The notes under the pieces: generated by a model
What the model was told of the DNA's origin: nothing
Database searches by the model: none
Seen by the model: the letters and a program-made list of their open reading frames with translations, nothing else
Shown here: in pieces, positions 2,341-34,036 of the stretch
Position numbering within the stretch: the first letter of the stretch is position 1
Layout: every line of letters begins with the position of its first letter
Program-made: the position numbers and the translations under genes
Origin: a virus
DNA length: 34,036 nucleotides
Virus record (IMG/VR): IMGVR_UViG_3300005748_000166
Span: 1 to 34,036 of that record
Strand: one strand, 5' to 3'

Positions 2341-2632
2341 GTGCCCAGTCTTTTGCAAGGTGTTATTCTCTAATAAACTTGCTCAACCAGTTGTAATAGC
2401 CCTGGTAGTGGTGTTTGCACTTTAGATTAGTATGGCTAAAGCAGGCTAAGCACCACAAGAAAAAAAACAAGATTAAATGATAGGTAAGGACGAAACACTT
2501 TCCTCTATCAGCCTAAACTAAATGACCGACCGACCGATTGTGTTATTAAGGTTCTTCAATAGGTTTTAATATTTAAGTATGTTAAACACTTATTGAACCT
2601 TACACATTCCCTCCCTCTCTCTTGTGTTATAT
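2341..2632. other. Gene-free region with four consecutive imperfect hairpins
   Basis: No open reading frame of useful size is present. Four dyads follow one another. (a) GCAAG 2355-2359 and TTATT 2363-2367 with AATAA 2372-2376 and CTTGC 2378-2382. (b) GTGGTG 2408-2413, TGC 2416-2418 and TTTAG 2421-2425 with CTAAA 2436-2440, GCA 2441-2443 and CACCAC 2451-2456. (c) GATAG 2479-2483 and AGGA 2487-2490 with TCCT 2501-2504 and CTATC 2505-2509. (d) AAGGTT 2548-2553 and CAATA 2557-2561 with TATTG 2591-2595 and AACCTT 2596-2601. Each has a 2-3 nt bulge in its 5' arm. It could be a structured RNA, a packaging or replication site, or a regulatory leader. Confidence 0.55.
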
Positions 2633-3506: not shown

Positions 3507-3514
3507 TATATTTG
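3507..3514 (+). promoter_or_regulatory. TAtaTTTG promoter -7 motif B
   Basis: A perfect match to TAnnTTTG beginning 2 nt after the stop codon of the upstream gene. No good -33 element is seen. A transcript from here would run about 80 nt through two hairpins and end at 3598. Confidence 0.45.
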
Positions 3515-3536
3515 TAATGTTTCATGTCATAGATGT

Positions 3537-3598
3537 AAAAGCGGTTTTGAGAAGTTTACGCTTTTAGCCCCCTATCATTAATTTGGTAGGGGTTTTTT
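3537..3598 (+). terminator. Two tandem hairpins ending in a strong intrinsic terminator
   Basis: The first hairpin pairs AAAAGCG (3537-3543) with CGCTTTT (3559-3565), 7 bp without mismatch. The second pairs CCCCTATCA (3569-3577) with TGGTAGGGG (3584-3592), 9 bp with one GU pair and a 6-nt loop, followed by six T (3593-3598). The second is a textbook terminator separating early from late genes. The extra upstream hairpin makes the module look like a small structured RNA or an attenuated leader. Confidence 0.82.
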
Positions 3599-27109: not shown

Positions 27110-27117
27110 TACCTTTG
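27110..27117 (+). promoter_or_regulatory. TAccTTTG promoter -7 motif C
   Basis: A perfect TAnnTTTG match 4 bp after the last lysis gene. TTTG at 27082-27085 is 24 bp upstream, a loose fit. A short dyad CATCT (27121-27125) / AGATG (27136-27140) follows, then a terminator at 27160-27190. Confidence 0.42.
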
Positions 27118-27159
27118 AAGCATCTTCATTTTTGTAGATGTTCTGTTAGTTGTGAATTA

Positions 27160-27190
27160 GGGGGTGTTGCCATGAGCGCCCCCTTTTTTT
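27160..27190 (+). terminator. Intrinsic terminator C (end of late/lysis operon)
   Basis: GGGGGTG (27160-27166) pairs with CGCCCCC (27177-27183), 7 bp with one GU and a 10-nt loop, followed by seven T (27184-27190). It closes the late transcript before the early operon. Confidence 0.85.
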
Positions 27191-27221
27191 GTGCTAAATT
27201 TTAAAATTTTATTGCGTTTAT

Positions 27222-27251
27222 TTTGTTATTTGAAAATAAGTAGTAATTTAG
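27222..27251 (+). promoter_or_regulatory. Early promoter with dyad in the spacer
   Basis: TTTG (27222-27225), 18-bp spacer, then TAATTTAG (27244-27251), one mismatch from TAnnTTTG. The spacer contains TTATTT (27226-27231) / AAATAA (27234-27239), a perfect dyad with a 2-bp centre. The same layout, with much of the same sequence, occurs at 32215-32244. It should drive 27276 and the replication genes, and the Cro/CI-like protein encoded just downstream could bind the dyad. Confidence 0.62.
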
Positions 27252-27275
27252 CAGAGCAAACTAACAATTTAAAAC

Positions 27276-29056: not shown

Positions 29057-29064
29057 TATCTTTG
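29057..29064 (+). promoter_or_regulatory. TAtcTTTG promoter -7 motif D
   Basis: A perfect TAnnTTTG match 11 bp after the previous stop, embedded in a GAAAT/ATTTC dyad. The terminator at 29083-29113 begins only 18 bp downstream, so a transcript would be about 40 nt. No good -33 element is visible. Confidence 0.4.
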
Positions 29065-29082
29065 TAATGATTTCATACGATT

Positions 29083-29113
29083 AGGGGACGCGATTAATTT
29101 TGCTCCCCTTTTT
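29083..29113 (+). terminator. Intrinsic terminator D
   Basis: AGGGGA (29083-29088) pairs with TCCCCT (29104-29109), 6 bp with a 15-nt loop, followed by a T run (29109-29113). It separates the annealing operon from the KilA-N gene. Confidence 0.72.
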
Positions 29114-32203: not shown

Positions 32204-32214
32204 TTGCAGTTTAT

Positions 32215-32244
32215 TTTGTTATATTGAAATTATGTGTAATTTAG
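32215..32244 (+). promoter_or_regulatory. Promoter before 32267, same type as 27222
   Basis: TTTG (32215-32218), 18-bp spacer, TAATTTAG (32237-32244). Eight bases before the spacer (TTATTTTG) and ten after it (TAATTTAGCA) are identical to the early promoter at 27218-27253, and 11 of 18 spacer bases also match. The two are probably co-regulated. Confidence 0.62.
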
Positions 32245-32266
32245 CATCATAATTAAACGTAACGAC

Positions 32267-32869: not shown

Positions 32870-32938
32870 TAACGCTTAGTGTATGATTAAGCGAAGCGAC
32901 CCGAAGGGTTAATTATAAACATTGTTATTAATAGTAAA
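32870..32938. repeat. Intergenic repeat, copy 1
   Basis: It begins TAACG..AGTGTATGAT and ends with a 27-base block containing ACATTGTTA and GTAAA. Both ends recur in the next gap (33137-33270), with 21 of 27 bases matching at the tail. It contains a 6-bp hairpin CGCTTA (32873-32878) / TAAGCG (32888-32893) and a small ACCC/GGGT hairpin (32899-32909). The look is that of gene-cassette spacers. Confidence 0.5.
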
Positions 32939-33136: not shown

Positions 33137-33270
33137 TAACGGACGAGTGTATGATACGTTGCGTTTAGATACGCTAAAACTTTGAATAAAACAGAAACGA
33201 AATAAATATTAACAGACCTTTGAAATAGCAGTAAACAGCAATGGATTATACACATTGTTACCCACTGTAA
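33137..33270. repeat. Intergenic repeat, copy 2 (expanded)
   Basis: It begins TAACG..AGTGTATGAT and ends with the block containing ACATTGTTA (about 33244-33270), as in copy 1, with about 95 extra bases between. It holds a small hairpin GCGT (33161-33164) / ACGC (33171-33174). It lies upstream of the methyltransferase gene. Confidence 0.5.
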
Positions 33271-33305: not shown

Positions 33306-34035
33306 TATGGGAAGCAAAAATAGATTTGCGAAAGAATTACTACCAATTATATTAAAAGACCGAAAGCCTGAACAATGGTATGTTGAGCCATTTGCTGGTG
33401 GAATGAACTTAATTGATAAAGTAGAGGGAAACCGAATAGCAAACGACAATAACAAGTACTTAATAGCCTTATGTAAAGGACTGCAAACTAATAAAAGCAG
33501 ACCAACCGAAATAAGCAAAGAATTTTATAGCGATGTAAGAGATTGTTTTAATGGCAAAAACTCTAAATACGATGACTTTACGATAGGTTGGGTTGGTTTT
33601 ATGGGTAGTGCAAACGGACGTTTCTTTGAGGGTGGTTATAGCGGAAAATCAAATACCAAAATTGGCACAGTAAGAGATTATATTGCAGAGAGTATTCGCA
33701 ATATACAAAAGCAAATACCAAACTTAAAAGACGTTGACTTTAGATGTGGTGATTATAGACAATTAGAAATACCTAAAAACAGCATTGTATATTGTGATAT
33801 ACCTTATGAGGGAACTAAACAATACTCGACAAGCAAAGGTTTTAATCATAGCCAATTTTGGGATTGGGTAAGAAGTACTACACTTAAAGGAAACCAAGTC
33901 TTTGTAAGTGAGTACAAAGCACCCGAAGATTTCGTTTGCGTATGGGAAAAGGAAGCAAAAAGTAGTTTGAAAGCAAATGGCGTTATAAAAGGCAATAAGT
34001 TAAGCACCGAACGCTTATTTATTTATTGTGGGTAA
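33298..34035 (+). CDS. dam: Dam-type DNA adenine methyltransferase (245 aa)
   Basis: The enzyme methylates adenine in DNA, likely to guard the phage genome against host restriction. The D12-class motifs are YMGSKNRFAKELLP (residues 3-16), the SAM-binding VEPFAGGMNLID (29-40) and the catalytic VYCDIPYEGTKQY, where DIPY (167-170) replaces the usual DPPY. The length of 245 aa is typical. It ends TAA at 34033-34035 and its last bases are repeated at 1-49, so the gene spans the circle junction without a break. The target site cannot be read from sequence; GATC is only the family's commonest site. Confidence 0.92.
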   Translation: MKYMGSKNRFAKELLPIILKDRKPEQWYVEPFAGGMNLIDKVEGNRIANDNNKYLIALCKGLQTNKSRPTEISKEFYSDVRDCFNGKNSKYDDFTIGWVGFMGSANGRFFEGGYSGKSNTKIGTVRDYIAESIRNIQKQIPNLKDVDFRCGDYRQLEIPKNSIVYCDIPYEGTKQYSTSKGFNHSQFWDWVRSTTLKGNQVFVSEYKAPEDFVCVWEKEAKSSLKANGVIKGNKLSTERLFIYCG

Positions 34036-34036
34036 C
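33987..34036. repeat. Terminal direct repeat, right copy
   Basis: Identical over 50 bases to positions 1-50. See the left copy. Confidence 0.97.

Follow-up and report, generated by a model that had tools for sequence, protein, structure and literature searches.

The longest gene-free gap of the window (the whole stretch of DNA analysed here, an IMG/VR virus record of 34,036 bases) may be a transcription-control junction of two operons, a reading that we hold to be evenly balanced between right and wrong. On this reading, the upstream part of the gap, positions 2234–2340, would be a terminator unit of a type that we call a "kissing-loop terminator", and the downstream part, which contains four hairpins, H1–H4, would be an untranslated read-through tract. 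The name is coined here and denotes a box, a hairpin (P1), and a terminator having a loop complementary to the P1 loop.

A structured unit at the start of the gap

The terminal 50 bases of the record are identical (1–50 and 33987–34036), so the assembly is probably circular. The record is a tailed-phage genome of the Bacteroidota type; its large terminase is 52% identical to that of a Pedobacter prophage and 49% identical to those of Riemerella phages, and its genes are carried on the + strand. The gap extends from 2223 to 2683 (461 nt) and is the longest stretch without a gene in the record, in agreement with the original prediction, which had placed a row of hairpins in "the only large gene-free region". 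An SSB / NinB / HNH operon precedes the gap, and a small operon led by a ribbon-helix-helix-like gene follows it, towards the terminase genes. Folding of the full gap gives a z of −3.8 on the + strand (0 of 100 shuffles as good) and −1.8 on the − strand; the + strand value is more striking than that for 2341–2632, the range covered by the original prediction, because the segment upstream of that range is also structured. The features of the gap and its downstream flank are as follows:

2234–2241, + strand: match to the sigma-A −7 box, TACCTTTG, fitting flavobacterial TAnnTTTG, 12 nt past the stop codon of the upstream gene
2241–2260, + strand: P1 hairpin, GTGATG-GCTAAATA-CATCAC (fold of 2240–2262, z −6.3, 0 of 500 shuffles as good)
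2246–2252, + strand: kissing segment GGCTAAA, complement of TTTAGCC in the terminator loop
2293–2340, + strand: intrinsic terminator, with arms GCCCC (2293–2297) and GGGGC (2330–2334), a 32-nt loop, and a U-run (2335–2340)
2311–2317, + strand: loop segment TTTAGCC, 7-nt complement of GGCTAAA at 2246–2252
2355–2382, + strand: H1, z −2.7 (500 shuffles), modest
2408–2456, + strand: H2, z −2.9 (500 shuffles), 7th among the local hairpins of the record's + strand
about 2479–2509 (2478–2510), + strand: H3, z −0.7 (109 of 500 shuffles as good), −1.5 when extended, within chance
2539–2606, + strand: H4, with core 2548–2601 and an outer TGTGT/ACACA extension; core z −5.1 (0 of 500 shuffles as good), 9th of the local hairpins
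2632–2662, + strand: promoter-like TTTTG-N18-TATATTGC, ahead of the ribbon-helix-helix-like gene at 2684
2684–2986, + strand: ribbon-helix-helix-like gene, first of the next operon, named from sequence appearance (ORF and relatives)

The unit at the start of the gap measures ~105 nt from box to terminator, and its 5' end is able to pair with the terminator loop. It shows the layout that we define below for other phages: a TAnnTTTG box, a small hairpin, and, no more than about 130 nt on, an intrinsic terminator, with a complement between P1 loop and terminator loop of 7 nt, the rule being at least 6 nt. Several points count against the junction reading: the 7-nt complement GGCTAAA/TTTAGCC alone has a p of 0.09 relative to shuffled loops, the stem core of the terminator is only 5 bp, the terminator hairpin alone has a z of −1.1, and no clear −33 box lies ahead of the box at 2234. 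The best match in the record of covariance model R3, which represents the GTCGT subfamily described below, falls on 2241–2339, at a score (14.7 bits, E 0.41) that is not significant. We hold it likely that the unit at 2234–2340 belongs to the kissing-loop terminator layout.

The flavobacterial sigma-A −7 box, TAnnTTTG, lies at −12 to −5 (PMC9723704), and the same spacing predicts a transcription start at 2246. The P1 5' strand is 2241–2246; a start at 2246 would remove it, so that the kiss would join the very 5' end of the RNA, not a hairpin loop, to the terminator loop. The same 5'-end-to-loop pairing may also apply to a Riemerella phage unit (locus L172, 13712). This predicted start and the lack of a gene behind the terminator set the unit at 2234–2340 apart from the layout, and both count against the junction reading.

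The sequences, their complementarity, the wide occurrence of the layout, the covariation in the related GTCGT subfamily, and the position ahead of start codons are observed; from the layout we infer how transcription, termination, attenuation, any trigger, and H1–H4 might be connected. Transcription would begin behind the TAnnTTTG box and yield a short RNA; the GGCUAAA at its 5' end would bind UUUAGCC in the terminator loop, and the majority of transcripts would stop at 2335–2340. In most other phage units a gene lies right behind the terminator, which suggests an attenuator that is closed by default and has to be opened in some way. Here no gene start lies behind the unit (no ATG frame of at least 25 codons within 150 nt), and H1–H4 fill the position held by a gene in most other units and end just ahead of the ribbon-helix-helix promoter; read-through RNA would enter H1–H4 and continue to the ribbon-helix-helix-like operon, with H2 and H4 serving at most as stability or processing hairpins. 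Of the functions offered in the original prediction, a structured regulatory RNA has support in this gap, though at 2234–2340, just upstream of the range that it covered, and not in the H1–H4 row.

Candidate kissing-loop terminators in other phages

Across 142 phage loci, intrinsic terminators have the box 40–99 nt upstream more often than expected (20 occurrences vs. ~4 predicted from farther positions), and permuted motifs in the same test gave 2–8. The enrichment was repeated in six previously unused isolate phages (10 vs. 2.2; control motifs, 0–6). In five of seven long-loop units, the 5' segment and the loop are complementary over 7–14 nt. Two of the units, one in a Flavobacterium phage and one in an uncultured phage, have GTAG-NGTCGTNG-CTAC in common; BLAST added Polaribacter phages. 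Cultured phages with the layout include Flavobacterium phage hattifnatt and Polaribacter phage P12002L. Scanning of IMG/VR with the pattern GTAGNGTCGTNGCTAC returned at least 120 stretches, and, among the matches listed, the box stands directly before GTAGNGTCGTNGCTAC in 60 of the 84 examined, nearly all 60 with a terminator.

The layout recurs in phage sequences of the Bacteroidota type: a structural rule without a fixed kissing sequence identified 109 units, 88 of them GTCGT, in 2.56 Mb of loci that include the listed GTAGNGTCGTNGCTAC matches, and the same rule with reversed, complement-only, and direct matching as controls identified 1, 5, and 3 units. Since complementarity is built into the rule, it cannot itself serve as evidence; what counts is the excess over the controls. 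Kissing sequences other than GTCGT occur in 21 units, that at 2234–2340 among them (for example, GGTCAGA/TCTGACC, CATCCAC/GTGGATG, and CTCTCAC/GTGAGAG), and, to judge from the controls, roughly one in ten of the rule's calls outside the GTCGT subfamily would be wrong. Short-loop units B, C, and D were considered as kissing type and set aside, their terminator loops being too short. Riemerella phages (L172, 13712–13870; L177–L180) carry a related unit in which 5' end and terminator loop are complementary over 14 nt; it is present, at 72–100% identity, in about 19 phage records, one of which is labelled as a Shigella phage but matches the Riemerella phages.

Alignment of 42 GTCGT units, taken from the matches listed, shows that all four helices are kept in 96–100% of cells. 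Most kissing columns of the alignment are fixed by the search pattern and hence are uninformative; the one free kissing column covaries without exception, with 31 C-G, 11 A-U, and no mismatch. Double changes occur at six of six terminator-stem pairs and at three of four inner-helix pairs in the same 42 units, and sliding the partner columns by 1–3 lowers pairing from 98.6% to 30–56%. A start codon lies no more than 15 nt past the U-run in 75 of 83 GTCGT units among the matches listed. Many of the genes behind GTCGT units resemble NUMOD4-HNH or GIY-YIG endonucleases (judged by eye; by record annotation for L171), and other units stand before helicase-like, methyltransferase-like, and unknown genes. 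Conserved predicted leader RNAs directly before the start codons of endonuclease-like and other phage genes occur in L182–L301 (GTAGNGTCGTNGCTAC units), L171 (13299), L176 (1511), and L056 (3211). Model R3 found no match in 247 Bacteroidota genomes, in a search that lacked a positive control and the empty result of which is therefore uninformative.

Known systems resemble these units in part. Transcription attenuators, and riboswitches whose expression platform is an intrinsic terminator, likewise have a terminator-containing leader between promoter and start codon; the kissing-loop unit differs in showing no ligand pocket or leader peptide and in the pairing of its 5' segment to the loop of the terminator, which should favour, rather than prevent, the terminator hairpin. 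Leaders of T4-type intergenic homing endonucleases are similar in position, many GTCGT units standing directly before HNH- or GIY-YIG-like endonuclease genes. In the T4 leaders the ribosome site is hidden in a hairpin, whereas kissing-loop units place a terminator ahead of the start codon. The Rfam RNAs of Bacteroidetes (6S-flavo, Flavo-1, Bacteroides-1, Bacteroidales-1, and Bacteroid-trp; PMC2864571) are structured RNAs from the same phylum, but neither the record nor four loci with related units have an Rfam 15 match. We found no description of kissing-loop terminators in the open-licence literature and, as far as these tools reach, regard the class as so far undescribed and best filed under transcription attenuators.

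A bolder version of this reading, which we consider a long shot, is that the units make up a class of phage RNA switch not described before: interchangeable kissing sequences would keep endonuclease genes, among others, silent until some trans factor undoes the pairing, and the switch in this phage would control a noncoding RNA, H1–H4, where others control a gene.

If the attenuator reading itself is right, phages of Bacteroidota-type hosts would share a common, compact RNA attenuator with a 7-nt loop-pairing address that varies by unit; the silencing of mobile endonucleases and other genes behind such units would be explained; and annotation would gain a new RNA family and a set of small, mutually independent terminator switches.

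The H1–H4 tract

All four inverted repeats that the original prediction had described are present in the sequence, and two of them, H2 and H4, stand out clearly above chance. The shared architecture that it had attributed to them, two stems plus a 5'-arm bulge of 2–3 nt, is seen in H3 and H4 only. It does not apply to H1, with its 1x2 internal loop, or to H2, with a 1x3 internal loop and a 1-nt bulge; the internal loops of these two are heavier on the 3' side. The real fold contains three two-stem hairpins, a number matched by 32 of 400 shuffles, and two 5'-bulged two-stem hairpins, matched by 6 of 400. Comparison of 2341–2632 with shuffled sequence does give better folding on the + strand (z about −2.1 to −2.5; −2.14 with 5 of 200 shuffles as good) than on the − strand (−0.86), but at a level that is not unusual in this genome, where 22 of 116 windows have a z of −2.14 or lower (25 shuffles each, hence noisy).

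The main rival to the junction reading is that H1–H4 have no function, being chance hairpins of a spacer or the decayed remnant of a gene once behind the terminator. We judge this possible and clearly less probable than the junction. It is favoured by the z of 2341–2632, which is inside the range of the genome's own windows, by H3, which is at chance level, by the lack of a layout shared by all four hairpins, and by the presence of a gene at this position in other units. It is further favoured by the searches for homologs, in which no source yielded one. Searches with blastn of phages, fetched viral loci, 47 related virus records, and 395 Bacteroidota genomes gave only chance matches of 20–30 nt to the gap; an 18-mer of H2 had no match in IMG/VR; single-sequence covariance models of H1–H3 and of H4 had no significant match in 76 sources, nor did that of H1–H3 in 296 genomes; and the best outside covariance-model match for H1–H4 (L025, 1457–1591) had an E of 0.23. 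Across the 34,036-base record no Rfam 15 family reached the gathering score, and the best sub-threshold match of the gap, a miRNA model on H4, is by chance. Against chance or decay stand the z of H4 (−5.1), the place of H2 in the top ten local hairpins, and the G+C content of the tract, 37% vs. 24–31% for most other gaps. A lost gene was also sought in the tract, with six-frame reads in which stops were entered as X; Pfam gave no match of note, and the absence of a recognisable protein, or remnant of one, likewise weighs against decay.

Next among the rivals, and in our view improbable, is that H1–H4 are transcribed from a promoter of their own as a discrete noncoding RNA. A candidate promoter is present (TTTTG at 2351–2355, N18, and TAAACTTG at 2374–2381, with one mismatch to TAnnTTTG), the + strand folds better than the − strand, and the pairing of H4 is likewise stronger in + strand RNA. 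However, no terminator lies behind H4, the candidate box sits within H1 itself, and no homolog was found.

A DNA site for packaging or replication, which the original prediction had also offered, is very improbable. The tract is gene-free and about 1.1 kb upstream of a candidate small terminase gene, but three genes intervene, iterons and clustered long direct repeats are absent, the best hairpin has its stronger fold in + strand RNA, and relatives have no comparable row at that place. Nothing shown here makes the H1–H4 row, taken alone, new biology, and it carries little weight until homologs turn up.

The promoter-like stretch downstream and other elements of the record

The promoter-like stretch at 2632–2662 may be compared with the TAnnTTGY promoter type (PMC9723704), and stretches similar to it precede the gene in several of the closest homologs (L025–L029, L042, and L046). 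An AT-rich promoter with repeated TATA-type half sites (2625–2665; L025–L029, L042, L046) stands before ribbon-helix-helix-like genes of otherwise different phages. The stretch is present in only some of 33 loci and is a possible autoregulatory operator. The gene at 2684–2986 has no Pfam or PHROG match.

Inverted repeats of 57–136 nt, TAACG-N3-5-GTGTATG...ATACAC-ATTGTTA, are found in the record at 32871–32931 and 33139–33262, the latter preceding a DNA methyltransferase gene, and, several per locus with cassette-like spacing, in L030, L033, L034, L043, L045, L057, and L079. By sequence they resemble integron attC sites. Phage examples of such sites have been described, among them methyltransferase cassettes of Polaribacter phage P12002L (PMC9892861). 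A tyrosine recombinase was found in 3 of 12 related records and was not found in the 34,036-base record. H4 was considered as a decayed site of this kind and rejected, the outer TAAC/GTTA arms being absent.

Promoter-like stretches that resemble one another, TTTATTTTGTTAT(T/A)TTGAAA...GTAATTTAGCA, lie before genes in the replication half (27211–27256 and 32211–32250). Three further box-to-terminator units, at 3507–3598 (TATATTTG), 27110–27190 (TACCTTTG), and 29057–29113 (TATCTTTG), are about 50–90 nt long, lie directly past stop codons, and have short terminator loops, usually with a second promoter behind; they are candidate small RNAs. Near the predicted 5' end of several such short units, TTTCAT or TTCAT is seen by eye (3515–3525 and 29065–29075; also L027, L028, and L002) and, as the complement of ATGAA at gene starts, could serve as an antisense seed.
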